Shown: positions 6,345 to 38,587 of the stretch, one piece after another
How the letters are laid out: every line of letters begins with the position of its first letter
How positions within the stretch are numbered: the first letter of the stretch is position 1
NCBI RefSeq assembly: GCF_031458255.1
Contig: NZ_JAVDYC010000001.1
Span: forward strand, 8,418,501 to 8,482,500
Source: Catenuloplanes niger
Lineage (GTDB): Bacteria; Actinomycetota; Actinomycetes; Mycobacteriales; Micromonosporaceae
Direction of reading: 5' to 3'
Length of the DNA: 64,000 nucleotides
The notes under the pieces: generated by a model
What the model was told of the DNA's origin: nothing
Seen by the model: only the letters and a program-made list of their open reading frames with translations
Databases searched by the model: none
Translations under genes and position numbers: made by a program

Positions 6345-6380
6345 CGCGGCCGAAGCGGCTCACGGCCGGTGTCGCGCGGG

Positions 6381-14779: not shown

Positions 14780-14819
14780 GCAATGACGCAGGTGTCGAAC
14801 GCAATGTCTCGTTGCAATG
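14780..14819 (+). repeat. Three GCAATG direct repeats before the HTH/MarR regulator
   Basis: GCAATG occurs at 14780-14785, 14801-14806 and 14814-14819, with start-to-start spacings of 21 and 13 bases. The first spacing is two DNA turns. The third copy contains the ATG at 14817. If translation really starts later (TTG 14862), all three lie upstream of the gene and could be regulator half-sites. Confidence 0.35.
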
Positions 14820-15521: not shown

Positions 15522-15589
15522 CACTCAACATCGACCAACCTCGCCGCGTAGTGGTGTGCCCACGGAAGGTCATGGGTATCGTCGGGATC

Positions 15590-23543: not shown

Positions 23544-23600
23544 CGCCGGGACCGGGCCGGTCCCGGCGAGCCCTGCCGCGTCCCGGGTGGGGTACCCGGG
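23544..23600. promoter_or_regulatory. Two inverted repeats between xdhC-like and sagB-like genes
   Basis: The first dyad has 12-base arms at 23544-23555 and 23557-23568 around one base. The second has CCCGGGT (23582-23588) facing ACCCGGG (23594-23600). Both lie in the 170-base divergent promoter region. They could be regulator sites, but chance is possible in such GC-rich DNA. Confidence 0.35.
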
Positions 23601-23691
23601 CCGGGCGCCGGTAACCCGCGTCCCGCCAGTGTGCCGCCGGGTGCCGGAAAACCGCTCATCGGCCGCGCCGCGTGTCTGCCAGGATGGGCGC

Positions 23692-25233
23692 GTGAAACCT
23701 GACACGGGCGCCGGCCTGCTGCACCTGCTGACGTCGTACCGGACGGATCGGGAGTGGGATGTCCCCGCGGACGATCCACGGGTGCGGCACGACCTCGTCC
23801 CGAACGACCCGGACACGTTCCCGCCGCCGGTCAAGGCGTACCCGCCGGGTCTTCCCACCACCGTGCTCCCGCGCGACCTGCCGGTGCCGGAGGTCGCGGC
23901 CACCGCGGTCCTGTCCGGACACGCGGGACCGGCCGTGCCGCTGGACGCGGCCGGCCTCGGCCGGATCCTGTTCCTCGGCGCCGGCGTGGTCCGCACCACC
24001 GAGCGCAACGGCCGGTCCTGGCTGTTCCGGGCGTCCGGCTCGGCCGGTGCCCGGTTCCCGCTGGAGGTCTACGCGGTCACCACCGGCGTCGCCGGCGTCC
24101 CGGACGGCGTGCACTGGTACGACCCGGTCGCGCACGCGCTGGTCCAGGTCGGCCCGGCGGCCGGCGGCGCCACCACGCTCGTGGTCACCGGCGTGCCGTG
24201 GCGGACCGGCTGGCGTTACGCGGAGCGCGGTTTCCGGCACCTCTACTGGGACGCCGGTACGCTGCTGTCGCAGCTCGAGGCCGCGGCGGTCAGCGCCGGG
24301 CGCGCGCCCCGGCTGGTCACCCGCTTCCCGGACGCGCGGGTGCGGGACCTGGTCGGCGCGGACGGCGTGCACGAGTTCCCGCTGGCACTGCTCACCGTGG
24401 ACGGTGCCGCGCCGGTCACCGAGCCGGCCGGCCCGGCCGTGCGCGGCGACCTGCCGGAGGTGGAGTTCCCGCTCGTCACCGCGGCCCAGCGGGCCGGCGA
24501 CTCCGACTCGCTCGGCACGGCCTGGCCGCTCGCGGCCCCGATCACCCCGGCCACCCGCCCGGTCACCCCGGATCGGCGGCCGACCGCGCCGGGACACGTG
24601 ACGGGTCGATCGCCGGGACAGGGGTCCGGCACGGCGGCCGGAGGCGGTGCCGATCCGGGCCGGGAGACGCTCGACGACGTCGTCCGGCGCCGGGGATCGC
24701 AGCGGCGGATGGACCGCTCCCGTACCGTACCCGCGGAGGCTCTGGAATGGCCGCTGGCGGCCGCGCTGCGGGGCATCGACGTGCCGCACTGGGTCGCGGT
24801 GCACGGCGTCGACGGCGTCCCGCCGGGCGTCTACCGCTGGCCGGACCTCGACACCCCGGTCCGCGCCGGTGACCTGCGCGACGAACTGACCCGGATCTGT
24901 CTGGACCAGGCGCTCGGCGGCGACGCGGCCTACGTGGTGATCGCCGCGATCGACGGCGCCGCACTGGACGACCGCGGCTACCGGGAGGCGCAGCTGGCCG
25001 CCGGGATCGTCGAGGGGCGGCTGCACCTGGCCGCGTACGCGCTCGGCGCCACCGCGTCCGGCATGACGTTCCTCGACTCGGAGGTGCCCGGCCTGCTCGG
25101 CGCGGACGACACGCTCGTCACGCTGTTGTTCACCTGCGTCGGCGTCGCGGAGTACCGGTCGCGGCCCGGTGGTGCGCCGGGCGCGCCGGTGGCGATTCGT
25201 AGCGTTGTGCCCCGGATGGGGACCGTGTCCTGA
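23692..25233 (+). CDS. Tandem SagB/ThcOx-type nitroreductase-fold protein
   Basis: 513 residues from GTG 23692, roughly two SagB-type domains. The first half starts LLTSYRTDREWD and contains FPPPVKAYP, RILFLGAGVVRTTERNGRSWLFRASGSAGARFPLEVY and GFRHLYWDAGTLLSQLEAAA. A linker rich in Pro/Thr/Gly (about 280-330) leads to a second half with RRGSQRRMD, AYVVIAAIDGA, YREAQLAAGIVEGRLHLAAYALG and ATASGMTF. SagB-type FMN oxidoreductases oxidise azolines to azoles in RiPP peptides, yet no YcaO cyclodehydratase or precursor gene is present here. Stand-alone tandem members are common in actinomycetes and their substrate is unknown. Confidence 0.82.
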   Translation: MKPDTGAGLLHLLTSYRTDREWDVPADDPRVRHDLVPNDPDTFPPPVKAYPPGLPTTVLPRDLPVPEVAATAVLSGHAGPAVPLDAAGLGRILFLGAGVVRTTERNGRSWLFRASGSAGARFPLEVYAVTTGVAGVPDGVHWYDPVAHALVQVGPAAGGATTLVVTGVPWRTGWRYAERGFRHLYWDAGTLLSQLEAAAVSAGRAPRLVTRFPDARVRDLVGADGVHEFPLALLTVDGAAPVTEPAGPAVRGDLPEVEFPLVTAAQRAGDSDSLGTAWPLAAPITPATRPVTPDRRPTAPGHVTGRSPGQGSGTAAGGGADPGRETLDDVVRRRGSQRRMDRSRTVPAEALEWPLAAALRGIDVPHWVAVHGVDGVPPGVYRWPDLDTPVRAGDLRDELTRICLDQALGGDAAYVVIAAIDGAALDDRGYREAQLAAGIVEGRLHLAAYALGATASGMTFLDSEVPGLLGADDTLVTLLFTCVGVAEYRSRPGGAPGAPVAIRSVVPRMGTVS

Positions 25234-25303
25234 CAGGACGGGCGGAGATGACTAGGTTGTGGCGAGACTTTCATCTACCGGTTTGACGGGAGGCCACCGC
25301 TCC

Positions 25304-25690
25304 ATGCGCCTGGTCCACATTCTCGACTGCGTCGACCCGCAGCCGCTCGCCGAGTTCTGGTCCCAGGCGCTGGGGTTCCGGGTCGGCGCCTGGGAACCGC
25401 CCTACCAGCGCATCGTCGACCCGGCGGGCCGCTGGCCCGACATGATCTTCCAGGCCGTCCCGGAGGAGAAGCGCGGCAAGAACCGCATGCACCTGGACAT
25501 CCAGCTCACCGACATGCGCGGTGAGCTGGGCCGGTTCCTCGCGCTCGGCGCCCAGCTGGTCCAGGCGCCGCACGACGACAACGGCTACGAGATCGCGACG
25601 CTGGCCGACCCGCAGGGCAACGAGTTCTGTCTCGTCGTCCCGCCGCCCGGCTCCTACGACCACGACCACCTGAAGGTGCTGGAGGGCTGA
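25304..25690 (+). CDS. VOC-superfamily (glyoxalase/bleomycin-resistance fold) protein
   Basis: 128 residues from ATG 25304, preceded by GGGAGG. One paired beta-alpha-beta-beta-beta module set: LVHILDCVDPQPLAEFWSQALGF at the start, MHLDIQLTDM in the middle and LADPQGNEFCLV at the end, the usual VOC pattern. These are small dioxygenases, isomerases or binding proteins. The gene stands alone and the substrate is not predictable. Confidence 0.85.
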   Translation: MRLVHILDCVDPQPLAEFWSQALGFRVGAWEPPYQRIVDPAGRWPDMIFQAVPEEKRGKNRMHLDIQLTDMRGELGRFLALGAQLVQAPHDDNGYEIATLADPQGNEFCLVVPPPGSYDHDHLKVLEG

Positions 25691-25694
25691 GCGG

Positions 25695-26009
25695 TCACCC
25701 CTGCGGCGACACGTAGGACAGCGAGACGGTGAACGTGCCGTCCTTCTCCACCATGAGCGTGTACGTGTTCCACGGCTCCGCGTCCGCGTCCACGGTGTCG
25801 TCGTACAGCTTGATCAGGGTCAGGTCGAACTCCGGCGGCGCGGCGACCGGCGTGACCGAACCATCCGAGCTCACCACGGACAGTGATGACGTGGAGTGGC
25901 CGAGGTCGGCCTCGCCGGTCGCGACGATCCGGTCCCCGCCGTCCGGAAGTGCCTGGAGAAGCAGCTCCACCAGTGACTTGACGATCTCGTCGTGCCGCGG
26001 ACCGTGCAT
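25695..26009 (-). CDS. Small protein, possibly YezG/immunity-like
   Basis: 104 residues from ATG 26009, behind GAGGAG. The protein has an N-terminal helix (EIVKSLVELLLQAL) and then beta-rich sequence ending WNTYTLMVEKDGTFTVSLSYV. The W-x-x-Y...DG-x-F-x-V...Y pattern recalls YezG/Imm-type immunity proteins, but the likeness is weak and no toxin gene is adjacent. An inverted repeat at 26022-26048 lies just upstream. It converges on the VOC gene. Confidence 0.5.
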   Translation of the reverse strand: MHGPRHDEIVKSLVELLLQALPDGGDRIVATGEADLGHSTSSLSVVSSDGSVTPVAAPPEFDLTLIKLYDDTVDADAEPWNTYTLMVEKDGTFTVSLSYVSPQG

Positions 26010-26021
26010 CTGTGACTCCTC

Positions 26022-26048
26022 GTTCCCCGTTGCGGTATTGCGGGGAAC
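26022..26048 (-). promoter_or_regulatory. Inverted repeat in the leader of the YezG-like gene
   Basis: GTTCCCCG (26022-26029) and CGGGGAAC (26041-26048) are perfect arms with an 11-base spacer, ending 12 bases before the start codon and next to the Shine-Dalgarno site. It could be an operator or an mRNA hairpin. Confidence 0.4.
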
Positions 26049-26194
26049 CTTACTGAACGTATGCAACCGTGGCGGGTCGCAAACGCCGTGCGGCGCGGCC
26101 CAAGGATCAAGATCACAAACGGTGCGTCGGCATTGCGACGCTCGGGGCGCGTTCGTGAAAAGATCAATACCTCACGGACACGGAGGGTACGCAG

Positions 26195-26659
26195 ATGAGC
26201 GACGCCGACCTGATCGCGCGCATCGAGGAGCAGGAGGAGCGGCTGCGGTTCGACCGCTTCGACAACGACGACGCGTGGCGGCTCGGCGTGCTGCTGGCCG
26301 ACACCGCCCGGGAGCGCGGCCTGTCCGTCACGATCGACATCCGCCGCGGCGGCCAGCAGCTCTTCCACGCCGCGCTGCCCGGCACCGCGCCGGACAACGA
26401 CCGCTGGATCGACCGGAAGGTCCGCGTGGTCGAACGGTTCCAGGCCAGCTCCTACCTGGTGGGCCGGCGCCTCGCCGCGAAGGGCCGCACGCTGGACGCC
26501 GGCCAGGGCGTCGACCCGGCCGACTACGCGGCGCACGGCGGCGCGTTCCCCGTCCACGTCCGCGGCACCGGCGTGGTCGGCGTGGTCACGGTCTCCGGCC
26601 TGCCGCAGGCCGACGACCACGCGCTGGTCGTCGACGTGCTGGAGGCGTTCCTCCGCTGA
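26195..26659 (+). CDS. HbpS/UPF0303-like heme-degrading domain protein
   Basis: 154 residues of the GlcG/HbpS-like fold, UPF0303 branch: RFDRFDNDDAWRLG near residue 20, the strand LSVTIDIRRGGQQLFHAALPG, NDRWIDRKVRVVERFQASSYLVG and GTGVVGVVTVSGLPQADDHALVV near the end. Family members bind heme or small ligands, and some heme-degrading activity has been reported. ATG 26195 follows GGAGGG. Monocistronic. Confidence 0.82.
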   Translation: MSDADLIARIEEQEERLRFDRFDNDDAWRLGVLLADTARERGLSVTIDIRRGGQQLFHAALPGTAPDNDRWIDRKVRVVERFQASSYLVGRRLAAKGRTLDAGQGVDPADYAAHGGAFPVHVRGTGVVGVVTVSGLPQADDHALVVDVLEAFLR

Positions 26660-26741
26660 CCGGGTGCGGCCTGCTGGCCGGGTGCGGCCCGCTGAGCGGG
26701 TGCTCGCCCGGGTGTGGCCCGCTGAGCGCGCCGGCGCCCGG

Positions 26742-26900
26742 TCAGCCCTGCGGCAGCGGGATCGCCTCGTCGCCGCTGATCACCTGGTTGGCCGGCGGCG
26801 GGCTCGCGGGCGTGGTGGCCCGCAGGTCCTCCGGCCGGACGCGCTCGGGCATGTGCCGCCACCGCTCCGGCGTGGGACGCGGGTCGCTCTGCTTCTCCAT
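26742..26900 (-). CDS. Short basic/proline-rich protein, 52 residues
   Basis: Starts at ATG 26900 with no strong ribosome binding site. Sequence is MEKQSDPRPTPERWRHMPER followed by a Pro/Ala-rich tail. No domain is recognised. It is kept because its third codon positions are GC-rich and it fills the gap before the molybdoenzyme gene. It could be a spurious frame. Confidence 0.35.
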   Translation of the reverse strand: MEKQSDPRPTPERWRHMPERVRPEDLRATTPASPPPANQVISGDEAIPLPQG

Positions 26901-26940
26901 GCCCTGATGATGGCACGCGACCACCCGGTTCCGGGGGGGT

Positions 26941-28578
26941 TCACACCGCGGAGACCGAGATCGTGTGCCGGCCGGTGGCCCCGTCCGGGAACGGTGTGGC
27001 GCGTGCGTCGGTCTGTACCGCGCCCGCCCGGTCGGTCGCCCGGACCCGCAGCGTGTGCCCGCCCGGCGCCGGCTTCCACGGCAGCCGCCACTGCACCCAG
27101 GTGTCGTCGGACGGCGGCGGCAGCACGGTCGCGGCCTGCCACGGCCCGTCGTCGATCTGCACCTCGACGCTCGCGATCCCGGTGTGCAACGCCCAGGCGA
27201 CGCCGGAGATCGTGGCGTTCGTCCCGGACTCGAGGCGGGTGAACGGCGCGGGCCGGTCGATCCGGGACGCGGTCTTCGCCGGTCCCTCCGCGGCCCAGCC
27301 ACGCTCCACCCAGTAGGCGTCGTACGCCGCGAACGTGGTCAGCTCGAGCTCGGTGATCCACTTGCAGGAACCGGCGTAGCCGTACAGGCCCGGCGTCAGC
27401 ATCCGCACCGGGAAACCGTGCGTGACCGGCAGCGGTTCGCCGTTCATGCCGACCGCGAGCATGGCGTCGCGGCCGTCCCGCACGATCCGGGTCGGTGTCC
27501 CGATCGTCATGCCGTCCGCGCCGCGCGCCACCAGCTGGTCCGCGCCCGGATCGACCCCGAGCTCGTCGAGCAGCGCCGCCAGCGGTACGCCGAGCCAGCG
27601 CGCGGTTCCGGTGTACGGCCCGCCCACCTCGTTCGAGACGCAGGTCAGGGTCAGGAACCGTTCGACGGTACGCCGGCGCAGCAGGTCGTCCAGGCTCAGC
27701 GTCACCGGGTTCCGGACCATGCCGTGGATGCGCAACCGCCAGTCGGCCGGGTCGATCCGGGGGACCGTCAGCGCGGTGTCGACGCGGTAGAAGTCCGCGT
27801 TCCGGGTGAGGAAGTCCGGTGGGGTGCCCGGCGGCAGCGGGGGAGCGGGCTCGGCCGGCGCGGGCAGCCGCACCGCGGCCCGGGACTCGGCCAGGGAGGA
27901 CGTGGCGCGTCGGCGCAGCAGACCGGTCAGGCCACCCGCCACCACGGCTCCCACGCTCAGCGCCGTCGCCGTGGTCAGGAACCCACGCCGGCTCCGCTCA
28001 CCGGACAGGTTCGCGGTCGCGGTCGTGCGCTCGTGCTCCGGGGTCGCGGGATCATGGTCAGCCGTCGTGAGGTCGTGCCCCGCGGCATCGGGCTCGTGCC
28101 CCGCGGCAGTAGGTTCGTGCCCCGCGGCGGTGGGTGCTTCCGCCGGTGGGGCGGTGCCGGGGCGCAACGCGGTCAGTGCGGTCAGCGCGACCGCCGCGAG
28201 CAGGCCCGCCAGCGCCGACGGCAGCACGTCCGCCGACTCGGCACCGGGCCGGGTGACCGCGGCCACCGCGCCGGCCACGCCGAACGCGGCGAAACCGAGC
28301 ACGCCCCACAGTGGACGGCGCCGCGCCGCGATGCCGAGCGCGGCCGCGAGCAGTGCGGTCAGGATCGCGATGCCGGTCAGCAGCAGGGGTTTGTCGGCGG
28401 TGCCGGCGGTGCGGACCGCGAACTCCTTGACCGGCGTCGGGGTCGCGTCGATGACGGCGGCGCCGACCGAGAGGACCGGGCTGGCCCCGGGCCGGGCCGC
28501 GGCGGCGAGAAGCTCGCCCGCCGCGACCCCGGCACCGGCCGCGATCAGCCCACTGAGAAGGTCTGAACGCCACCGCAC
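26941..28578 (-). CDS. Membrane-anchored molybdopterin-dependent (sulfite oxidase-family) oxidoreductase
   Basis: 545 residues. The N terminus has about four membrane helices, then a low-complexity linker with 7-residue His-containing repeats (about 150-177), a Tat-like RSRRGFLTTATALSVGA helix (about 196-215) and the catalytic part. The molybdopterin-binding domain shows the molybdenum-ligating cysteine C313 in LTCVSNEVGG, HGFPVRMLTPGLYGY and KWITELEL. The Mo-cofactor dimerization domain closes the protein. The substrate is unknown. It starts (GTG 28578) two bases after the fasciclin gene stop, an operon pair often seen in actinobacteria. Confidence 0.9.
   Translation of the reverse strand: MRWRSDLLSGLIAAGAGVAAGELLAAAARPGASPVLSVGAAVIDATPTPVKEFAVRTAGTADKPLLLTGIAILTALLAAALGIAARRRPLWGVLGFAAFGVAGAVAAVTRPGAESADVLPSALAGLLAAVALTALTALRPGTAPPAEAPTAAGHEPTAAGHEPDAAGHDLTTADHDPATPEHERTTATANLSGERSRRGFLTTATALSVGAVVAGGLTGLLRRRATSSLAESRAAVRLPAPAEPAPPLPPGTPPDFLTRNADFYRVDTALTVPRIDPADWRLRIHGMVRNPVTLSLDDLLRRRTVERFLTLTCVSNEVGGPYTGTARWLGVPLAALLDELGVDPGADQLVARGADGMTIGTPTRIVRDGRDAMLAVGMNGEPLPVTHGFPVRMLTPGLYGYAGSCKWITELELTTFAAYDAYWVERGWAAEGPAKTASRIDRPAPFTRLESGTNATISGVAWALHTGIASVEVQIDDGPWQAATVLPPPSDDTWVQWRLPWKPAPGGHTLRVRATDRAGAVQTDARATPFPDGATGRHTISVSAV
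28073..28135 (-). repeat. 21-base tandem repeat inside the molybdoenzyme gene
   Basis: Three near-identical 21-base units (28073-28093, 28094-28114, 28115-28135), in frame, encode AAGHE/D-type heptads in the linker between the membrane part and the catalytic part. A diverged fourth unit adjoins. Each heptad offers one histidine. Confidence 0.7.
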
Positions 28579-28580
28579 GG

Positions 28581-29219
28581 TCAGCTCTTCGGCATGAGTA
28601 CGGTGTCGATGATGTAGACGGTCGCGTTCGAGGTCTGCACGTTGCCGCAGACCACGGCCGCGTTGCCGTTCACCGTGAACGACTCACCGCTGCCCGCGAC
28701 GGTCAGCTCGCCGCCCTGCAGCGTGGTGTGCGTGCCCGCGAGGTCCGTCGGCGCCAGCTTCCCGGACACCACGTGGTAGGTGAGGATGTCGGTCAGCTGC
28801 TTCTTGTCCGCCAGCACCTTGTCCAGGTCGGCCTTCGGGATCTTCCCGAAGGCGTCGTCGACCGGCGCGAAGACGGTCAGCGCGGGCGCGCTGTTCAGCG
28901 AGTCGACCAGGCCGGCCTGCTTGACCGCGCTGACCAGCGTGCTCAGCAGCGGGTTGCCGGACGCGGCGGACGCGACGGGCACCTGCGCCATCGCCTGGAA
29001 GCTGCCCGCGTTCGCCGGGTCGGTGGGCACGGCCGCGCAGCCGGGGCCGAACTCCGCCGCGGCCATCGCCGGTGCGCTGCTCGCCATCGCGGTGGCCATG
29101 GGCGTGGCCTCGCCGGTCGCGCCCGTGCTGGTCTCCGCGTCGTCACCCTGGCCGCAGGCCGCGAGCCCGAGGCAGAGAGTAGCCGCGCTGGCGACCGCGA
29201 TCATACGAATCGTACGCAT
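28581..29219 (-). CDS. Fasciclin (FAS1) domain lipoprotein
   Basis: 212 residues from ATG 29219; an in-frame ATG at 29237 is possible. Lipoprotein signal with lipobox LGLAAC at about residues 18-22, a short Ala/Thr/Met-rich linker, then one FAS1 domain: NPLLSTLVSAVKQAGLVDSLN, the H1 motif LTVFAPVDDAFGKIP, LTYHVVSGKL, LQGGELTV and the H2 region VYIIDTVLMP. It resembles mycobacterial MPT70/MPT83, surface adhesion-type proteins. The molybdoenzyme gene follows directly. A SigK-like promoter lies at 29273-29299. Confidence 0.92.
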   Translation of the reverse strand: MRTIRMIAVASAATLCLGLAACGQGDDAETSTGATGEATPMATAMASSAPAMAAAEFGPGCAAVPTDPANAGSFQAMAQVPVASAASGNPLLSTLVSAVKQAGLVDSLNSAPALTVFAPVDDAFGKIPKADLDKVLADKKQLTDILTYHVVSGKLAPTDLAGTHTTLQGGELTVAGSGESFTVNGNAAVVCGNVQTSNATVYIIDTVLMPKS

Positions 29220-29272
29220 GGTGAAATGTCCCCTCATAGCGTTGTGAGTCCGGGTCAGGACCGTTGTGAGGG

Positions 29273-29299
29273 ATTCGGTGACCACCGGCCGGCGGATGG
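29273..29299 (-). promoter_or_regulatory. SigK-like ECF promoter of the fasciclin-molybdoenzyme operon
   Basis: On the minus strand CCATCC (29299-29294) precedes CCGAAT (29278-29273) with a 15-base spacer, about 54 bases before the start codon. As I recall it, the SigK promoter of mycobacterial mpt70/mpt83 uses the same two hexamers with a slightly longer spacer. The region 29220-29543 holds this and no gene. Confidence 0.55.
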
Positions 29300-29543
29300 G
29301 TCCTTATTTCGGCGAAGTCCCCCGAACGGACCTCAGATGTGCATCCACACCCGACACAACCCCCGGCGAAACGCCTGATTGCCCAGCTCACCGCGCCTGC
29401 CGAACCACCTCGGGCGCGCACTGCACATGTCTCGCGGCGGGCGCGGCGGGCGGCATCCCGGCGTCGTGCCGCTCGTTCGTGGTCGGGCGGACCGCGGACC
29501 GGAATTCGGCGGATGCGGAGCCGGCCGCGCCCGGGACGGGCGG

Positions 29544-30266
29544 TCACCAGGGGACGGGGCCCTCGTCGGAGAGGAACGCCGCGGTGGTGCGGTCGTCGGT
29601 GGTGGCGAGGCCGACGGCGACGGCGGCGCCCTGGGCGGCGGTGCGCTCGACGGGGATGCCGAGGGCGGCGGTGAAGTCGGTGGCGCAGGCGCCGGGCGCG
29701 ATCGCGTTGACGGTGATGCCGTCGTCGGCGAGCGCCTTGGCGTACTGGACGGTGAGCATGTTCAGGGCGGTCTTGGAGACCGGGTAACCGGCCATCGTCG
29801 CGCGGATCGCGAACGAGTGGGCCGGGTCGGTCGTCCGGGCCATCGACGCGGTGCCGCTGGAGACGTTGATGACGCGCGCGCCGGAGCCGCGGCGCAGCAG
29901 CGGCAGGAACGCCTCGGTGACGCGGATGACGCCGAGGACGTTCGTGTCCAGCACGGAGCGGACCGTGTCCAGGTCGACCGCGCCCGGGACCTGCCGGAAG
30001 CCGCCGGAGATGCCGGCGTTGTTGACCAGGACGTCCAGCCGACCGTAGCGGTCCGCCACCTCGCGGGCGGCCGCGGCCACGGACGCGTCGTCGGTCACGT
30101 CCAGCGTGATCGGGTACGCGCCGATCCGGGCGGCGGCCGCGGCGCCCTTCTCCGGGTCGCGCGCGGCGATCAGCACGGTCAGGCCGTGTCCGGCGAGGCC
30201 TTCCGCGATCGCCGCGCCGATGCCCTTGTTCGCCCCGGTGACCAGGGCGATCCTCTCGTCTGTCAT
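29544..30266 (-). CDS. Short-chain dehydrogenase/reductase
   Basis: 240 residues from ATG 30266. Classical SDR: cofactor loop TGANKGIG at residues 10-17, NNAG near 88, the catalytic serine in VINVSSGTASMA and the catalytic Tyr/Lys in YPVSK, followed by VNAIAPGACATDF. The arginine after the glycine loop (AARD) suggests NADPH. The sequence resembles carbonyl reductase-like SDRs. It is divergent from a LysR gene with a dyad between them, so LysR control is likely. Confidence 0.92.
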   Translation of the reverse strand: MTDERIALVTGANKGIGAAIAEGLAGHGLTVLIAARDPEKGAAAAARIGAYPITLDVTDDASVAAAAREVADRYGRLDVLVNNAGISGGFRQVPGAVDLDTVRSVLDTNVLGVIRVTEAFLPLLRRGSGARVINVSSGTASMARTTDPAHSFAIRATMAGYPVSKTALNMLTVQYAKALADDGITVNAIAPGACATDFTAALGIPVERTAAQGAAVAVGLATTDDRTTAAFLSDEGPVPW

Positions 30267-30303
30267 GCGGTCATCCGACCATCGGGACGCGGCCCGCTCC
30301 AAC

Positions 30304-30324
30304 ATCGATCGAGTCCCGATCGAT
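30304..30324. promoter_or_regulatory. Dyad between the SDR and LysR genes
   Basis: ATCGATCG (30304-30311) and CGATCGAT (30317-30324) are perfect inverted arms with a 5-base spacer, in the 69-base divergent gap. The position and symmetry suit a LysR-type regulator site controlling both genes. Confidence 0.55.
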
Positions 30325-30335
30325 ACCCTGACGGT

Positions 30336-31193
30336 ATGGACGACGTGGAGACGCGCGAGCTGCGGTACTTCGTCGCGGTCGCGGAGGAGCTGCACTTCGG
30401 CCGCGCGGCCGCGCGGCTCGGCATCGCGCAGCCGCCGCTGTCCCGGGCGATCCGCCGCCTCGAGCACCGCCTCGGCGTGCCGCTGCTGGAACGCACCAGC
30501 CGCTCGGCCCGGCTCACGCCGGCCGGCGAGGTGCTGCTCGCGGAGGGCCGGACGGCGCTCGCCGCGGTCGCGGCCGCGGTCCGGCGCACCCGGTGGGCCG
30601 GGCGGGAGACGCCCGGCCTGCGGCTCGCGATGAAGCCCGGCGGTGACGGCGGGCTGCTGCCCGGCATCCTCGACCGGTACGCGGAACAGCCCGGCGCGCT
30701 CCCGGTGGACCTGGTCTTCTCGCACCACGAGCGGGCCGCGATGGTCCGCGACGGCCGCGCCGACCTGGCGTTGCTGCACCACCCGCAGAACGACCTGACC
30801 GGCCTGGACAGCGAGCCGCTGCACACCGAACGCCGGGTGCTGGCGCTCGCCGCCGGTCACCCGCTCGCCGCCCGGGACACGCTCACGCTCGCGGACCTGG
30901 CCGGGTTGCCGATGTCGCGGTGGCGGGAGGCCGCGGTCCCCGCGCCCGGCCCGCTGGTCACCGACGTCGGCGAGTTGCAGCAGCTGGTCGCGCTCGGTCG
31001 CGCGGTCGCCCTGGTCCCGGAGTCCGCGGCGGACCACCCGTCGGCGGGCATCGCCTACCGGCCGGTGCTCGACGCGCCCCCGTCCACGCTCGTCCTCGCC
31101 TGGCCGGAGAACAGCCGTTCGCGCGACATCGCCGCGTTCGTCACCGCCGCCCGCGCCGCCGTGCCGCGCCGTCCGGCCGCACAGGCCGTCTGA
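30336..31193 (+). CDS. LysR-family transcriptional regulator
   Basis: 285 residues. N-terminal winged HTH (ELRYFVAVAEELHFGRAAARL, PPLSRAIRRLEHRLGVPLLERTSR), then a periplasmic-binding-like effector domain (PVDLVFSHHERAAMVRDGRADLALLHHP). Divergent from the SDR gene, which it probably controls. ATG 30336 has no strong Shine-Dalgarno site. The gene ends inside the arm of the terminator at 31182-31218. Confidence 0.92.
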   Translation: MDDVETRELRYFVAVAEELHFGRAAARLGIAQPPLSRAIRRLEHRLGVPLLERTSRSARLTPAGEVLLAEGRTALAAVAAAVRRTRWAGRETPGLRLAMKPGGDGGLLPGILDRYAEQPGALPVDLVFSHHERAAMVRDGRADLALLHHPQNDLTGLDSEPLHTERRVLALAAGHPLAARDTLTLADLAGLPMSRWREAAVPAPGPLVTDVGELQQLVALGRAVALVPESAADHPSAGIAYRPVLDAPPSTLVLAWPENSRSRDIAAFVTAARAAVPRRPAAQAV

Positions 31194-31218
31194 TCAGGCC
31201 ACCTGATCAGACGGCCTG
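31182..31218. terminator. Bidirectional terminator between the LysR and HsdM-like genes
   Basis: Perfect 17-base arms (31182-31198 and 31202-31218) with a 3-base loop, the strongest hairpin in the window. The LysR stop codon lies in the left arm and the methyltransferase-like gene stops two bases beyond the right arm, so both convergent genes use it. Confidence 0.85.
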
Positions 31219-31219
31219 A

Positions 31220-33916
31220 TCAGGTCAGCGGGCGGTCGATCTCGTGGTCGCGGCCGCTGCGCAGGGTGGCGGTGTGCCGGTGGACCTGGTTGATGACGAA
31301 GAACTCCCACTGGCGGCACGTCGGGCACAGTTCGGCGCCGGCGACCGGCCACAGGTCGATCGCGGCCGCGGTGGAGGGGCCGGTGACGTAGACGCGGTGC
31401 GGGGTGACCGGGTCGGGGACCAGGCGCTCGAACGGCTCCCAGTCGGGGTGGCCGCCGCGCAGCCGGCGGCCGACCAGGCGGAAGCCGGTGCCGGTGTACT
31501 CGCAGCGGTCGACCAGGTCGTACCGGAGCTGGGCGAGCCAGCCGGCGGACTCGAGGGTGCGCTGGACGACCGGCTCGATCCGGGCGATCTCGTCCTCCAG
31601 CTCGTGCGCGGGCTGGACGCCGAAGGAGTGGCCGGAGTCGTTGCGGAACCTGAGGGCCCGGGTGAGCAGCGCGTGGGTGCCGTCGTCGTCGAGGACGCCG
31701 TCGAGCTCGGGCAGCTCGGGCACCGCGCCGGGCGTGCGCAGGTCCTTGATCATCCAGTTCCAGGTGCCCCAGGTGGCGCTGCGCTCGAACCTGCGGCGCA
31801 GTTCGGCCGTCATCCGGTCGCCGTTGCGGCCGACCAGCACGGCAAGAGCCAGGCCCCCGATCGTACGGGCGACCGACTCACCCAGCTTGAGCAGCGCCTC
31901 CTTGCGCTGGGCTGGTGAGGCGGCGATCCGGTAGTGGCGGGCCAGGGCGGCGATCGGGAACGGGTACGCGTACTCGGCGCGCCAGAACGGGTCCTCCAGC
32001 GGTTGCAGCAGCTCCGTGGTGAGGGCCGCCGTGGCGAGTGCGACGCCGACCGTGCGCCGGGTCGCGGCCAGGTCGGCGCGGGTGCCCTCGAACACGTTGG
32101 GCAGGATGCCGGCGGTGATCCGGGCGAGGTCGGCGCGGGACCGGCGGAGGTCCTCGAGGTGGTCGCTGAACGTCTCGTCGTCGAGGATCTCGGCCGGCAC
32201 CGGCAGATCGGTGAGCGGGTGGAGGCGGTCGTCGTACCCGGCGTTCTGCGGGGCGTTGAGGAACTCGCACAGCGCGCGCCCGGTGCGGCGACGCGGCCGG
32301 AGCACGAACATGTGGGTGAAGGCCTCGCCGAACCCGGGCGGCAGCAGGTGCCAGTCGCCGGCGTCGCCGACGACGTCGCCGGCCGCGCACGGGGTGAGTG
32401 CCGACGTGGTCAGGACGGTGTCGAGATCGGCGGCGGAGAGGTCGGGCCGGTCGAGATCCTCGGCGGTGAGCAGCGGCCGGCCGGAGTCGGTGGGAGGGAC
32501 CGGCCGCAGGACCTCGGCGACCGAGGAGAGCGGCGCGTAACCGTCGCCGAGCGCGATGGAGAAGAACGCGAACGGGCGGATCTCGTAGCCGACGCGGGTG
32601 ACGTCGCCGACGACCCGCTCGAAGCGGAAATCGGCGACCGGCACGACCGTGGCGACGTCCGGCGCGACGGTGCCGGTCGCGGTGGCCGACCGCCGGATCG
32701 CGACGATCTCGGAGATCTGCTCGGTCGTCAGGTATCTGCTCTTGTCGGCGATCGCGCGGCGCATCGCCGCGAAGCGCCGGCGGCAGTCCATCAGGATGAC
32801 GTTGCCGGCGCGGTCGGGCTCCTTCCGGTTGGTCAGCACCCACACGTACGTCGGGATGTGCGTGTGGTAGAGGAGCCGCTCGGGCAGGGCCACCACGGTT
32901 TCGAGCAGGTCGTTCTCGAGGATCCAGCGACGGATCTCGGACTCGCCGGTGCCGGGCTCCCCGGCGAACAGCGGGCTGCTGTTGAAGAGGACGGCGAGAC
33001 GGCTGCCGCCGTCCTCCGGCGGGCGCATCTTGGCCAGCAGGTGCTGGAGGAAGAGCAGCGAGGCGTCGTTGATGCGCGGCAGGCCGGCGCCGAAACGGCC
33101 GGCGTCGCCGAGCGCGGCCTCCCTCGTGACCTCCGCCGCCACCTTCTTCCACTCCAGGCCGAAGGGCGGGGCGGCGACCAGGTAGTCGAAGGTGGCGTCG
33201 GGGTGGGCGTCCGCGCCGAGGGTGTCGCCGAGGGCGATGCCGCCGGGGTCGAGCCCGTGCATCAGCAGCGTGGCGGAGGCCAGTGCGGACGATGCCGGGT
33301 CGAGATCCTGGCCGGACAACTCCACCGGGGTCGGCCGGCCGACGGCGGCCCGGAGCTCCATGAGGGACCCGCCCGCTCCGCAGACCGGGTCGTAGACGCG
33401 GACCGGGGCGGTGCGGCGCGCCAGCCGGTCGGCGTCGGGCGCGACGATCAGCGCGGCGAGCAGGGCGGTCACGTCCGGCGCGGTGAAGTGGTCTCCGCCG
33501 GCGTCGGCCGCGATCTCGGCGGAACGGCGGACCAGCGTGTCGAAGACCGCACCCATCTCGGCGTCGGAGAGGACCCGCTCGCCGAGGTCGAGCGCGGCGA
33601 ACCGCGCGAGCACCGGGGGCAGGAGGCCGGCGTCGGCGAGTCGCGCGGCGACGGCGTGCAGGCCGAGCCGGGCCAGCAGGCCGGCCGGCTCCGCCGGGGC
33701 GTCGTCGGGCACGGCGCGGAGCGCTTCGCGCGGGTCGCTCCCGGCGTGCGCCCGGTGGACGAGGCTCCGACCGCCGAGCAGACCGAGGCACTCGAGGCGG
33801 CGGAACACGGTGAAGGGGAGGAGCACCGAACCGTACTCACTCGGGCGGAAGTCGCCTCGCAGAAGGTCGGCGACGGACCAGATGAGGTCGGCCAGATCCT
33901 GCGAGCCGTCTCTCAC
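31220..33916 (-). CDS. Orphan HsdM-like methyltransferase with HsdS-like region and C-terminal HEPN-type motif
   Basis: 898 residues. Residues 1-440 follow HsdM (N6-adenine methyltransferase of type I systems): N-terminal helical HsdM domain, SAM motif I DPVCGAGG (176-183), and HsdM landmarks ALPERLLYHTHIPTYVWVLT and YLTTEQISEIV. Motif IV, normally NPPF or DPPY, reads AAPPF (248-252), so the catalytic Asn is replaced by Ala and methylation is doubtful. Residues 440-620 look like an HsdS half-subunit (CEFLNAPQNAG, LPVPAEIL, coiled helix). Residues 640-800 are helical and carry RNDSGH (758-763), the R-[polar]-x3-H motif of HEPN ribonucleases. A lone CPTC is at 864-867. No hsdR, hsdS or other defence gene adjoins. 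Confidence 0.8.
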   Translation of the reverse strand: MRDGSQDLADLIWSVADLLRGDFRPSEYGSVLLPFTVFRRLECLGLLGGRSLVHRAHAGSDPREALRAVPDDAPAEPAGLLARLGLHAVAARLADAGLLPPVLARFAALDLGERVLSDAEMGAVFDTLVRRSAEIAADAGGDHFTAPDVTALLAALIVAPDADRLARRTAPVRVYDPVCGAGGSLMELRAAVGRPTPVELSGQDLDPASSALASATLLMHGLDPGGIALGDTLGADAHPDATFDYLVAAPPFGLEWKKVAAEVTREAALGDAGRFGAGLPRINDASLLFLQHLLAKMRPPEDGGSRLAVLFNSSPLFAGEPGTGESEIRRWILENDLLETVVALPERLLYHTHIPTYVWVLTNRKEPDRAGNVILMDCRRRFAAMRRAIADKSRYLTTEQISEIVAIRRSATATGTVAPDVATVVPVADFRFERVVGDVTRVGYEIRPFAFFSIALGDGYAPLSSVAEVLRPVPPTDSGRPLLTAEDLDRPDLSAADLDTVLTTSALTPCAAGDVVGDAGDWHLLPPGFGEAFTHMFVLRPRRRTGRALCEFLNAPQNAGYDDRLHPLTDLPVPAEILDDETFSDHLEDLRRSRADLARITAGILPNVFEGTRADLAATRRTVGVALATAALTTELLQPLEDPFWRAEYAYPFPIAALARHYRIAASPAQRKEALLKLGESVARTIGGLALAVLVGRNGDRMTAELRRRFERSATWGTWNWMIKDLRTPGAVPELPELDGVLDDDGTHALLTRALRFRNDSGHSFGVQPAHELEDEIARIEPVVQRTLESAGWLAQLRYDLVDRCEYTGTGFRLVGRRLRGGHPDWEPFERLVPDPVTPHRVYVTGPSTAAAIDLWPVAGAELCPTCRQWEFFVINQVHRHTATLRSGRDHEIDRPLT

Positions 33917-34053
33917 TGCCGCACTCCATGGTGGCCGGTGTCAGCGCGGATCGCTGGACCTGTCCGACAGTCTTACCACCGGGGTCCGACACGTTCGCGG
34001 GCGGAGTCTCGGGCGTCCACCGGGCGGCCCAGCCGACCGGACGGGGTCTTCGC

Positions 34054-34088
34054 GGGGTGCCGGCCGGGCGCAGCCCGGCCGGCACCCC
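34054..34088. terminator. Strong hairpin downstream of the SPW gene
   Basis: Perfect 16-base arms (34054-34069 and 34073-34088) with a 3-base loop, in the 312-base space between the SPW-gene stop (minus) and the methyltransferase-like start (minus). The rest of 33917-34228 shows no gene. The promoter of the methyltransferase-like gene must lie between 33917 and this hairpin. Confidence 0.65.
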
Positions 34089-34228
34089 GGCTCGTGCGCC
34101 CACGGCACGTGCAGGGAGGCCGCCCGCGGCCGACCGGTGCCCGCGGGAGCATGCGGCAGCGGAGCCGCCGGGAGCGGGCAGCGGCAGCAGATCGTGATCT
34201 GCCCACCGTGCGGTCGGCGACGCCGTGG

Positions 34229-34675
34229 TCAGTCGCGCATGACGCTGCGGGACCGGCCGCCGGACGCGGCGCTGGCCAGCGCGAGCACGGCGACGACCGC
34301 GCCGGTCGCGTAGCTGGTGCGGGCGGCGACCAGGTCGGTGCCGTAGCCGAGCAGGAACGGGGAGGCGATCAGCCAGATGCCGAGCACCAGGTGGACCAGG
34401 CCGAGCCGGCTGGTCCTCGGCGGGGACCCGAGGCGGGCGACGGCCAGGATCGCGATCACCGCGCCGCTGATCAGCGTGTTCCAGAACGCGGCGCCGTCGT
34501 GGCCGAGGACGAACGGTGCGACGACCAGCCAGACGCCGGCCACCAGCACGCCCACGTCGGTGATCAGCGAGAGGCGGCCGCCGGCCGGTCCCGGGTAGGT
34601 GGGTGGCGCGGTCTCGTGCGCGAGTTCGTGGCCCGGCGGGCGCTCGCGGTTCTCCGGGCCCTTGATGTCGGTCAT
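34229..34675 (-). CDS. SPW-repeat membrane protein
   Basis: 148 residues. A polar N terminus of about 35 residues precedes four hydrophobic helices arranged as two SPW repeats: VLVAGVWLVVAPFVLGHDG followed by WNTLISGAVIAILA, and LVLGIWLIASPFLLGY followed by a last helix. The family is common in soil bacteria and its function is unknown. The gene is single, with a strong hairpin 140 bases downstream. Confidence 0.85.
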   Translation of the reverse strand: MTDIKGPENRERPPGHELAHETAPPTYPGPAGGRLSLITDVGVLVAGVWLVVAPFVLGHDGAAFWNTLISGAVIAILAVARLGSPPRTSRLGLVHLVLGIWLIASPFLLGYGTDLVAARTSYATGAVVAVLALASAASGGRSRSVMRD

Positions 34676-34745
34676 GATGGTCCTCTGTGTGCCTGGAGGG
34701 GTGGGGCACCGGTTCGGCTACCCCACCCGCCGGGGCACAAACCGG

Positions 34746-36161
34746 TTACGCGGGTACGGGGTTGCGGGCCGTGGCGTAGGCGGCGGAGCCGATCAGCTCC
34801 ATCGAGACCTTCAGGCGCTCCAGGCTGATGTTCTTGGCGATCGTGTCCTCGGGGCTGTGGTACGGCGGTTCGAGGATCGCCGGGGACTCCTCGCCGCGCC
34901 AGGAGAAGTTCGCGGACGCGATGCCGACCTCCTGGAACGACTGGTGGTCGCTGGAGCCGCGCAGCGTGACCGGGGAGATCCGCGGCGCGTAGCCGAGGCG
35001 TTCCGCGGCGGCGGCCACCTCGTCCGTCGCCCGGTTGGCCAGGCCGGTGAAGGAGAGCAGCCAGTAGCGGGTGGCCGGGTTCCAGCTGGTGGCGACCATG
35101 TCGTTCTGGAACACGGCGACGATCCGGTCCCGTTCGGCCTGCGGCAGCTGCGCCACGTAGTAGCGGGAACCGATCAGGCCCTGCTCCTCCGAGCCCCACA
35201 GCCCGAACCGGAGCGTCGCGTTGACCGGCAGCCGGCGCAGCACCCGGGCCAGTTCCAGGTTGAGGACGGTGCCGGAGCCGTCGTCGTTCGCGCCGGGCGC
35301 GCCGATCACGGTGTCGTAGTGCGCGCTGACCATGACGACCGGGCCGGTGCCGTCGCCCGTGCGCCGCTCCGCGAGCACGTTGTGCGAGGTCAGGCCGCGG
35401 TGCGCGGTGGTGGTGACGGTGAGCTTGCGCAGCCGGCCGGCGGTCAGCAGCGCGCGCAGCCGGTGCTTCTGCGCCTGGGCCACGCCGACCACCGGGATCG
35501 GCACCGGCGTGGTCGCGGACCCGGGCAGCGTGGGGCTGAACGCGGACGCGCGCCGCGGCTCGACCAGGTCGGCGGGCAGGAAGATCACGGCCGCGGCGCC
35601 GCGGGCGACCGCGAGCGCGACCACGGCCTCCCGGTTCGCGGCCACGTAGTCGACCAGCAGGATCGTGCGGCGCACGGTCTCCGGGTAGTCGGCGGGGCCG
35701 CCCGCGCCGGCGTCCAGCACCTCGCCGCGCACCGTGCCACCCAGGCCGCCCTGCGGCGACGCGCCGGCCTGCCAGCACAGGTCGCGGGGCAGGCCGCCGG
35801 GCGCGTCCAGGTCGGCGAGGAACTTGTCCGCGACCGGGAACGGCTGGAGCGTGGTGTCGTAGCCGAGCCGGTCCAGGGTGTGCGCTATGTAGTCGGCCGC
35901 GCGTTTCTCCGAGCGGGTGCCACCGATCCGCGGGCCGATGCCCTCGGACAGCACGCGCAGGTGCTCGAGCGCGCGGCGGGCGGACACCTCGCCGGCCACC
36001 CGGCGGTCTCCCGGGGTCAGCGCCGGCGGGCGGACCGCGCCGGGCCGCTGGTCGCCGACCGCCCAGGCGGGGGCGGGCAGCGCGACGCCGGCGGCGCCAC
36101 CGGCCGCGAGCGCCAGCATCCGGCGGCGGCTGAGAAAGGACTTCGAGGCTGGGGTTTCCAA
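34746..36161 (-). CDS. Tat-exported M28-family zinc aminopeptidase (paralogue 1)
   Basis: 471 residues. TTG 36161 lies 4 bases behind AGGAGG. A Tat signal (SRRRMLALAAGG...PAPAWA) covers residues about 11-34. The zinc peptidase part shows all M28 ligands: His in SAHYDTV, Asp in PGANDDGSG, Glu-Glu in GSEEQGL, Asp in VFQNDM and His in PPYHSPED. A PA domain is inserted between the N-terminal part and the catalytic core. Exported aminopeptidase, probably scavenging peptides. A close paralogue lies at 55760-57145 with the same promoter motif. Confidence 0.92.
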   Translation of the reverse strand: METPASKSFLSRRRMLALAAGGAAGVALPAPAWAVGDQRPGAVRPPALTPGDRRVAGEVSARRALEHLRVLSEGIGPRIGGTRSEKRAADYIAHTLDRLGYDTTLQPFPVADKFLADLDAPGGLPRDLCWQAGASPQGGLGGTVRGEVLDAGAGGPADYPETVRRTILLVDYVAANREAVVALAVARGAAAVIFLPADLVEPRRASAFSPTLPGSATTPVPIPVVGVAQAQKHRLRALLTAGRLRKLTVTTTAHRGLTSHNVLAERRTGDGTGPVVMVSAHYDTVIGAPGANDDGSGTVLNLELARVLRRLPVNATLRFGLWGSEEQGLIGSRYYVAQLPQAERDRIVAVFQNDMVATSWNPATRYWLLSFTGLANRATDEVAAAAERLGYAPRISPVTLRGSSDHQSFQEVGIASANFSWRGEESPAILEPPYHSPEDTIAKNISLERLKVSMELIGSAAYATARNPVPA

Positions 36162-36200
36162 GGCTCCTCCTGGATCCGGGGGCGGGTGACCACCACAGGA

Positions 36201-36210
36201 AGAGACTAGG
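36201..36210 (-). promoter_or_regulatory. Promoter motif shared by both M28 peptidase genes
   Basis: AGAGACTAGG (plus strand) reads CCTAGTCTCT on the minus strand, with TAGTCT matching the TANNNT form of a -10 box, 40 bases before the start codon. The same 10 bases occur 33 bases before the start of the paralogue (57178-57187), and the flanking sequence is also alike. Confidence 0.5.
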
Positions 36211-36350
36211 GTCGATCTTGATGCCGGTCTATTACATGTCTGAGAATTGCACGGTACGACAAAGGGGCTAGCCTCCTAGGATGCGCTACGCGCGGTGGCG
36301 TGCGGCACGCGGGCGCGCAAGGGGTGGGGCAGTGGGAGGTCGTGCATGGG

Positions 36351-36806
36351 TCAGCGGTCGCGCAGCCGGTCGCGCAGCGCCGCGGCGATCTCGCCGGCCG
36401 CGGTGAGCTGTTCCGGCGTGAGCGCGTCGACGAACAGCTCCCGGACCACCCGCAGGTGCGGGATGGTCGCCGCGTGGAACGCCGCGCCCCCGTCCGGCGT
36501 CATCACGATCAGCGCGCCGCGGTTGTCGCCCGGCGCGCCGGTGCGGGTGATCAGGCCGCGCCGTTCCATCCGGCCGAGGTGGTGCGAGAGCCGGCTGCGT
36601 TCCCAGCCCACCCGGGTGGCCAGCTCGGAGGAGCGCAGGCGGGTGTCCGGCGCCTCGCTGAGCGTGAGCAGCACGGTGTAGTCGCCGGCGCCGAGGCCGG
36701 TGTCGTCGTGCAGGCGGCCGGTCACCCGGGTGCGCAGGGCCTCGGTGGCCTCGATGAACTCGCGCCAGATGTGCAGCTCGTCACGATCGGGCAGTTTGCG
36801 GGGCAT
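36351..36806 (-). CDS. MarR-family transcriptional regulator
   Basis: 151 residues with the MarR winged helix: GLGAGDYTVLLTLSEAPDTR, LRSSELATRVGWERSRLSHH, LGRMERRGLITR and the wing GDNRGALIVMTPDG. Divergent from the monooxygenase operon; two MarR-type boxes lie between them at 36826-36861, so it probably represses itself and that operon, with a small phenolic or oxidant ligand as in other MarR proteins (inference). Confidence 0.92.
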   Translation of the reverse strand: MPRKLPDRDELHIWREFIEATEALRTRVTGRLHDDTGLGAGDYTVLLTLSEAPDTRLRSSELATRVGWERSRLSHHLGRMERRGLITRTGAPGDNRGALIVMTPDGGAAFHAATIPHLRVVRELFVDALTPEQLTAAGEIAAALRDRLRDR

Positions 36807-36825
36807 AAAGCTCGACCTCCGGTAG

Positions 36826-36861
36826 TTGACGTGTCCATCATAGCAACGATTGACGTGTCAA
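36826..36861. promoter_or_regulatory. Two MarR-type boxes
   Basis: TTGACGTGTCAA at 36850-36861 is an inverted repeat (TTGAC/GTCAA around GT). A near copy, TTGACGTGTCCA, lies at 36826-36837. The starts are 24 bases apart. Both lie between the divergent MarR and monooxygenase genes. Confidence 0.65.
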
Positions 36862-36881
36862 TGACCTCGGAGGGCAGCGCC

Positions 36882-37907
36882 ATGATTCTCGGACTGGACA
36901 CGTTCGGCGACGTCCCGGAGGACGACCACGGCACGCTGGTGTCGCACGCGACCGCCGTCCGGCAGGTCGTCGAGGAGGCCGTGCTCGCCGACCAGCTCGG
37001 CGTGGACGTGATCGCGCTCGGCGAACACCACCGCCCGGAGTACTCGATCTCCACGCCGGAGACCGTGCTGGCCGGCATCGCCACCCGCACCGAGCGGATC
37101 GGGCTCGCGTCCGGCGTGACCGTGCTCAGCTCGGACGACCCGGTCCGGGTGTTCCAGCGGTTCGCGACCGTGGACGCGCTCTCCGGCGGCCGGGCGCAGC
37201 CGATCCTCGGGCGCGGCTCGTTCACCGAGTCGTTCCCGCTGTTCGGCTACGACATGAGCAAGTACGACGTGCTGTTCGAGGAGAAGCTCGACCTGTTCGT
37301 CAAGCTCCTCGACGAGAACCCGGTCACCTGGAAGGGCACCACCCGGCCCGCGCTGGAGGACATGGACGTGTTCCCGAAGACCGAGTCCGGGCGGATGGAC
37401 GCCTGGGTCGGCGTCGGTGGTTCGCCGCAGTCGGTGGTCCGTACCGCGCAGCACGGCCTGAAGTTGATGCTGGCCATCATCGGTGGCGCGCCGGAGCGGT
37501 TCGCGCCGTACGTCGACCTCTACCGGCGGGCCGCGGAGCAGCTCGGCACGGCCGCGCACCCGGTCGGCATGCACTCGCCCGGCTTCGTCGCGGACACCGA
37601 CGAGGCGGCGAAGGAGCTGTTCTACCCGCACTACAAGGTGCAGCGGGACCGGATCGGTGCGCTGCGCGGGTGGCCGCCGCTGCGCCGCGCGGAGTTCGAC
37701 CACGAGGTGGAGCACGGGTCGCTCTACATCGGCGCGCCGGAGACGGTGGCCCGTAAGATCGCCCGCGCGGCGAAGGCGCTCGACGTGGGGCGCTTCGACC
37801 TCATCTACACCGTCGGCGCGCAGCCGGTCAGCGCGCGGCTGCGCGCGGTCGAGCTGCTCGGTTCCACGGTGTTCCCGATGGTTCGCGACATGATGACGGA
37901 GAAGTAG
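36882..37907 (+). CDS. LLM-class (luciferase-like) flavin-dependent oxidoreductase
   Basis: 341 residues from ATG 36882, behind GGAGGG. Luciferase-like TIM barrel: [11 protein letters not shown] at the start, [57 protein letters not shown] and [17 protein letters not shown]. Such enzymes use FMNH2 or F420H2. The next gene, two bases downstream, is of the NADPH:F420 reductase type, which favours an F420-dependent pair (inference). Probably controlled by the divergent MarR. Confidence 0.92.
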
Positions 37908-37909
37908 AG

Positions 37910-38587
37910 ATGACGACCCTGGGGATCCTCGGCGCGGGCAAGGTCGGCACGGTGCTGGCCCGGCTCGCGGTCGCGGCGGGTTACGACGTGCTGATCGCGG
38001 GTTCCGGCGACCCGGCGAAGATCCGGCTGATCGTGGAGATCCTGACGCCGGGCGCGGTCGCGGTCTCCGGGGCCGAGGCGGCCGCGCGTGCCGACGTCGT
38101 GGTGCTGGCGCTGCCGCTCGGGAAGTACCGGTCGGTGCCGGCGGACGCGTTGCGCGGCAAGCTGGTGATCGACGCGATGAACTACTGGTGGGAGGTCGAC
38201 GGTGTGCGCGACGACCTCACCGACCCGCGCACGTCGTCGAGCGAGACGGTGGCGTCGTTCCTGACCGGTGCCCGCGTGGTGAAGGCGTTCAACCACATGG
38301 GCTACCACGATCTGGAGGAGGGTGCGCTGCCGGCCGGCGCGCCGGGGCGGCGGGCGATCGCGATCGCCGGCGCGGCGGACGACGCGGCGGAGGTGGCGGC
38401 GCTGGTCGACGCGCTCGGCTTCGACCCCGTGCTCGCCGGGCCGCTGGCCGAGGGGGTGCGGATGGAGCCCGGCACGGAACTGTTCGGCGCGAACGTGGAC
38501 GCGGCCGAGGTGCGGGCGATGCTGGACCGGTTCGCCGGCTCCGAGCGCGGCCGGGTGGTGACGGCGGCGCGCGCCGGGACGGTCTGA
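37910..38587 (+). CDS. NADPH-dependent F420 reductase-type oxidoreductase
   Basis: 225 residues. Starts [20 protein letters not shown], a Rossmann GxGxxG loop, then [29 protein letters not shown] and [17 protein letters not shown], which are landmarks of the F420-dependent NADP reductase / ProC-like group (COG2085). It starts two bases after the monooxygenase stop, so it is co-transcribed and likely supplies or recycles reduced cofactor. A hairpin at 38592-38620 ends the operon. Confidence 0.88.

Follow-up and report, generated by a model that had tools for sequence, protein, structure and literature searches.

A horizontally moved gene of Catenuloplanes niger encodes an HsdM-like chain with an altered motif IV and a probable HEPN ribonuclease domain

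HEPN ribonucleases have been tied to restriction-modification (R-M) in several ways, for which we draw on the accessible parts of three papers (PMC3710099, PMC3506569 and PMC12839542). The anticodon nuclease PrrC is coupled to a type I R-M system (PMC3710099, PMC3506569); its HEPN RNase is restrained by the R-M machine and freed by an anti-restriction peptide (PMC3506569), and in both PrrC and RloC the HEPN domain is joined to an ABC ATPase and is separate from the R-M subunits. HEPN domains are also fused to R-M helicases and restriction endonucleases (REases; PMC3710099) and occur on DUF499 ATPases (PMC12839542). According to a survey of 2013, HEPN domains linked to R-M fuse "not to the methylases", and Table 1 of the same survey records DUF86 HEPN domains as occasionally fused to nucleic acid methylase domains (PMC3710099). 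The protein described here would have in common with PrrC and RloC a restrained HEPN RNase, and with the helicase, REase and DUF499 fusions a HEPN domain set on an R-M-like machine. Unlike PrrC and RloC, it unites a methylase, a recognition-like domain and HEPN in one chain, has no R-M gene found near it and gives no Pfam match to an ABC ATPase; unlike in the other fusions, the partner of HEPN is a methylase plus a recognition part. Here, such a fusion exists despite the conclusion of the 2013 survey. A chain of methylase, target-recognition domain (TRD) and HEPN is not described in the accessible parts of PMC3710099, PMC12839542 and PMC3506569, and none is named in the titles and abstract beginnings of open-licence PMC papers, a scope outside which lie most subscription papers and bioRxiv.

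The gene occupies positions 31220..33916, on the minus strand, of the window, that is, of the whole stretch of 64,000 nucleotides that was analysed; it starts with GTG, encodes 898 residues and has a third-position GC of 0.96, similar to that of nearby genes (the coordinates of its parts given below all refer to the minus strand). The chain consists of an HsdM_N-like part (residues 8-44, 33785..33895; PF12161, E 5.5e-8), an N6-adenine methylase domain (residues 120-409, 32690..33559; N6_Mtase, PF02384, E 1.1e-40), a TRD-like region, a HEPN-like domain and a terminal Cx2C...H part, the first two being the only domains that a Pfam scan detects at E ≤ 1. With HsdM_N, N6_Mtase and motif I (DPVCGAGG, residues 176-183, 33368..33391; by sequence comparison, the predicted SAM pocket) all present, the protein is of the HsdM type, as the preliminary description had held, and MTase_I is its top PADLOC model. 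These features it shares with type I HsdM (PADLOC MTase_I PDLC03029), from which it differs in carrying a recognition-like domain and HEPN in the chain, in having no hsdR or hsdS among the ten tested neighbours, and in motif IV: instead of the (N/D)PP(Y/F) of type I HsdM, with NPPF as the expected form, sequence comparison finds AAPPF (residues 248-252, 33161..33175). Both motifs, as well as the RNDSGH considered below, lie exactly where the preliminary description had placed them; what it observed is confirmed, and its interpretation, a non-methylating sensor wired to a toxic RNase, is partly supported.

Relatives were sought by protein and profile searches, by tblastn against plasmids and phages, and by IMG/VR scans, and the C-terminal module was aligned in 25 rows. 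The HEPN-like domain (residues 645-800, 31517..31984), assigned from this alignment and from weak Pfam HEPN matches in relatives, contains RNDSGH (residues 758-763, 31628..31645), the predicted active site. Conservation of RNxxxH in homologues had been proposed as a check, and it holds: N759 and H763 are invariant (25/25), position 758 is R in 22 rows and K in 3, and in L117 the spacing from R to H is one residue longer. Equally invariant are the acidic residue E680 upstream (31877..31879) and Y651, P652, W719, G821 and H891; R684, at the Ex3[KR] position after E680, is found in 13/25 rows. R758, N759 and H763 all fall within the 19 of 310 columns that are conserved in at least 22 of the 25 rows, the chance of this for three residues named in advance being about 2e-4 by simple counting that ignores relatedness. 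Beyond these rows, three Streptomyces plasmid proteins also combine R-N-x3-H with Cx2C...H. The latter part of the chain (31223..31516), absent from the preliminary description, comprises C864 and C867 (each in 24/25 rows) together with H891 and is possibly metal-binding.

The HEPN definition given in the accessible part of PMC3710099 comprises Rx4-6H, usually a polar residue after the R and, in many families, an upstream acidic residue; all three are found in the window module. A Pfam scan of the 25 segments at E ≤ 10 matched seven families, of which three are HEPN, namely, RiboL-PSP (PF18735; best E 0.03, 2/25 members), MAE_28990 (PF18737; best E 0.25, 1/25) and Cthe2314 (PF18730; best E 0.3, 1/25). 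None of these three reached a cut-off and none involved the window row, which has no HEPN Pfam match at E ≤ 10; the non-HEPN family CDC48_N also matched, at E 0.022, and taken singly none of the matches is significant. Profile searches of the PDB with the module yielded no HEPN chain. HHalign comparison with the Swt1, DUF4145 and RiboL-PSP sets gave no signal, the reversed profile scoring higher in 3/3, and, since the known HEPN families that served as positive controls likewise failed to match each other in the same comparison, this result is uninformative. Judging from the conserved residues, the C-terminal domain is probably an RNA-cutting HEPN domain. We consider it unlikely that this domain is a non-catalytic dimerisation or regulatory part and the whole protein a DNA-binding regulator or a reader of modification without RNase action: the active-site motif is indeed absent from some HEPN families (PMC3710099, accessible part), and K replaces R in 3/25 rows, but the residues of the RNase motif (R/K, N, H and the upstream E) are among the best conserved of the domain.

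Between the methylase and the HEPN-like domain lies a single HsdS/TRD-like region (residues 440-612, 32081..32599). The HsdS-like region of the preliminary description finds support in relatives and lacks a Pfam match of its own in the window protein; in none of the 21 rows of this region was Methylase_S or another Pfam specificity domain found. Its profile (A6) matches PDB 8vsr/8vsq 'Esub1' at E 4e-4, as well as an HTH regulator (E 0.065) and the HsdS MG438 (1ydx, E 0.47), and in a PADLOC scan of ten relatives only L118 matches type I specificity models (Specificity_I, best E 1.2e-4). The assignment of residues 440-612 as a target-recognition-like domain is likely but not secure.

In distant relatives, only a remnant of the methylase, or the recognition-like domain with HEPN, appears to remain. 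L118, L119, L122 and L123 have no Pfam match at E ≤ 0.05; nonetheless, they align across the recognition-like and HEPN parts, and the profile of the distant group recovers the window protein with E 4.9e-19. By our reading of their sequences, three shorter proteins, L121 (525 aa) and two from Streptomyces plasmids that bear the annotation 'restriction endonuclease' (520 and 497 aa), appear to hold the recognition-like domain and HEPN alone. The C-terminal module also ends chains of other kinds, two of them helicase-like by our own reading of the sequence (L043 and, without Pfam support, L038) and two, read in the same way, putative membrane proteins (L042 and, without Pfam support, L040). In the phage records listed (15 of a total of 22), the similarity is limited to the methylase part, and scans of viral contigs in IMG/VR yielded one HEPN-fused contig, L056 (again as L127), which carries a terminase gene.

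The window gene is a single-gene insertion that was moved horizontally. Relative to G084 and G047, two genomes of the same genus, the insertion spans 31162..34230 (no strand assigned): flank similarity stops at 31158-31161 and restarts at 34229-34231, and the LysR and SPW matches are 185 bp (G084) and 10 bp (G047) apart, versus 3041 bp in the window. This empty site occurs in two of the four other same-genus genomes; in G067 and G006, the LysR and SPW genes were not adjacent in the searches run. When 8 kb were compared by blastn, similarity to Micromonospora inaquosa (89%) spanned 31216-34010 only and that to Actinoplanes siamensis (85%) 31219-34015 only, so that the unit common to the other-genus copies is the gene with about 95 bp upstream. 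The empty sites and the sharp boundaries of similarity support the single-gene character that the preliminary description had proposed. The upstream stretch that travels with the gene (33917..34010, minus strand; delimited by blastn and by alignment with L033, L034, L035 and L055) is probably a promoter. In this stretch, common to five carriers, TGTCGGAC is present twice in the window, single copies differing in some relatives; the pair is a possible operator. At 31190-31223, in the space where the LysR gene and the fusion gene converge, there are three copies of CTGATCAG, perhaps a two-way terminator. The distribution of the C-terminal module is patchy: of the family's 354 genomes, 14 match it at E ≤ 0.001, and of the 394 genomes from the class, 8 do, both counts including the window's own genome and weak distant matches.

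The ten ORFs that flank the gene (23587-38584) belong to metabolic, regulatory or other non-restriction Pfam families and include no defence gene; there is no hsdR among these ten neighbours, to which the search for it extended. In the host genome, no match to HsdS (PF01420) was found at E ≤ 0.001, and there is one other N6_Mtase match, weaker (26.8 bits) and above the cut-off. The earlier claim that no restriction gene lies near is valid for these neighbours and, as regards PF01420, for the genome, but not for some of the relatives, and the proposed comparison of neighbourhoods found R-M or other restriction genes by some relatives and none among the ten tested neighbours of the window gene. 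For this comparison, genes were called at 11 loci (L121 and others were left out), and Pfam was run on chosen neighbour ORFs at seven (L049, L116 and L117 were left out). L051 adjoins genes for the type I R, S and M subunits and for a kinase; in L034, an Mrr-like gene follows the relative of the fusion gene; the L048 relative is about 6 kb from a GmrSD gene; and L122 is near McrC, AAA, UvrD and MZB-helicase genes, a McrBC-family neighbourhood. The row at L051 (5858-18278, all on one strand) consists of type I M, S and R genes, a HEPN fusion in which ANPPF is intact, a Ser/Thr kinase gene and one for a RAMA-domain protein.

L090, L091 and L092 are plasmid genes annotated merely as 'N-6 DNA methylase', so that genes of this kind are easily overlooked and methylation may be wrongly expected of them. 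No annotated hsdR or hsdS is near them in a gene table that is incomplete; an HNH endonuclease family gene is close to L092, and the related plasmids of L090 and L091 have in common an XRE regulator and a hypothetical protein. Presence on plasmids and in a terminase-bearing contig, as well as insertion as a single gene, would also suit a toxin-antitoxin-like or addiction gene under selection to maintain itself and not to defend against phages. This we regard as decidedly improbable, given the R-M and McrBC-family genes near some relatives and given that no partner gene is obvious at the loci read, the regulator and hypothetical protein shared by L090 and L091 being borne in mind.

The Asn of motif IV makes contact with the target base in N6-adenine methylases; other methylases can have D in its place. 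The fate of the Asn was followed in a tree set of 70 methylase-domain rows, 14 of them HEPN-fused, 55 HEPN-less and one (L005/L055) an AAPPF row without a detected C terminus, which was accordingly labelled apart. The rows are matches spanning at least 280 query residues, drawn from the best 30 loci and the best 34 of two match lists, which is not a random sample; near-identical rows (e.g. one of L090/L091) were removed, the second gene of L034 (SHPPF, with a weak C-terminal match) was excluded, and the frameshifted copies L035 and L053 are both within the 14. Among the matches listed, the Asn is gone in 10 of the 14 HEPN-fused rows (AAPPF 4, AHPPF 2, SAPPF 2, ADPPF 1, SCPPF 1; its position thus holds A, H, D or C) and present in 55/55 HEPN-less rows. 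The remaining four fused rows listed keep it (ANPPF 2, ANPPY 1, SNPPW 1), and motif I is DPxCGxGG in all 14. Two more distant HEPN fusions, L052 and L092, which belong to another HsdM subgroup and are outside the 70-row set, keep ANPPF; with these added, the Asn is gone in 10/16 fused chains among the matches listed. ADPPF may still be a working motif because D occurs there in other methylases.

The association of HEPN fusion with loss of the Asn has a Fisher p of 2.9e-9, relatedness being ignored, and an independent-pairs test, with 3 pairs only, is not significant. In a tree for which the motif columns were omitted, the loss takes 4 changes or more (6 by letter), and the HEPN-bearing rows are united in a single clade in 0% of the 200 bootstrap trees. 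L056 (AHPPF) and L116 (ANPPF) are sisters (SH-aLRT 99); therefore, the loss can come after the fusion. Since some fusions keep NPPF, NPPY or NPPW, the fusion architecture does not depend on a loss of catalysis. The motif IV Asn has been lost in several lineages and, in the sample studied, only in HEPN-fused chains. As to the check proposed earlier, whether APPF and RNxxxH are conserved together, the Asn is lost repeatedly and, in this sample, in fused chains only, whereas APPF itself is not a conserved trait, with the Asn retained in the four fused rows listed and in L052 and L092. The refuting condition named in the preliminary description, homologues with NPPF here and no conserved R or H at 758/763, has for the most part not come about. 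It seems very improbable that the methylase is still active, as part of a one-chain R-M-like enzyme in which Ala is tolerated at motif IV and HEPN stands in reserve as an effector, as in the type I systems that carry PrrC. The intact motif I, the fused rows that keep the Asn and the type I M, S and R genes adjoining L051 would agree with such an enzyme, but the Asn is the residue that contacts the target base, and among the matches listed it is present in every HEPN-less row and lost solely in fused ones.

A full-length ORF is present in three genera. Comparison of these copies gives a dN/dS of 0.24-0.45 over the whole gene, 0.27-0.51 over the methylase part and 0.13-0.24 over HEPN; for the last 98 residues, it is 0.80 between the window and L033 and 0.10-0.23 in the other two pairs. 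L035, L053 and L055 are frameshifted or truncated; unless sequencing errors account for this, the genomes concerned seem able to do without the gene. That the protein is a decaying pseudo-enzyme without function, as these broken copies might suggest, is scarcely credible in view of the full-length ORFs and of the dN/dS values for the whole gene and for HEPN.

The reading that we favour, and to which we would give an even chance, is that of a stand-alone mobile defence protein in which a non-methylating sensor restrains a HEPN ribonuclease. The conserved R/K-N-x3-H and E, the loss of the motif IV Asn, the graded loss of the methylase, the single-gene insertion, the R-M genes near some relatives, the patchy distribution and the dN/dS below 1 speak in its favour. 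Against it count the weak HEPN profile matches, the fusions that keep the Asn, the lack of a defence gene among the ten tested neighbours, the dN/dS of 0.80 for the last 98 residues in one pair and the broken copies. The HsdM-like domain and the one target-recognition-like domain would form a DNA- and SAM-binding sensor, from which methyl transfer would have gone with the change of the motif IV Asn to Ala; a retained motif I beside a lost motif IV would point to SAM being bound as a ligand and not used as a donor. As a safety catch, the sensor would keep the C-terminal HEPN ribonuclease in check. On disturbance of the sensor, RNA would be cleaved by the HEPN domains, probably acting as a dimeric pair, and either the cell or the phage would be halted (abortive infection). 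Candidate triggers might be phage anti-restriction DNA mimics that bind a decoy, loss of SAM, or phage DNA modification; it is unlikely that an unmodified site suffices as trigger because no HsdS and only one other N6_Mtase match were found in the host genome. Further, it can be envisaged, tentatively and with more doubt than confidence, that there is a whole family of immune devices, each a single protein, in which a type I methylase, dead but with its SAM pocket kept, would serve as a guarded decoy or a SAM/DNA sensor, the RNase would be released by phage anti-restriction, and the methylase would have been switched off repeatedly after fusion and discarded in some lineages, where the recognition domain and HEPN would be what is left. 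The existence of the fusion, together with the loss of the Asn, in the sample studied, only in fused chains, makes an idea testable, namely, that of a modification enzyme turned into the sensor of a suicide RNase within a single mobile gene.

Weak matches to the C-terminal module are also found next to two of the relatives. In L048, at 5760-6830 and some 2 kb away from that genome's HEPN-methylase gene, a response regulator receiver domain is followed by a weak match to the HEPN module (RNGIAH). In L034, at 14807-17617, some 4 kb away from the window gene's 80% relative and separated from it by the Mrr-like gene, there is a second methylase-like protein with SHPPF at motif IV and a weak C-terminal match to the module.
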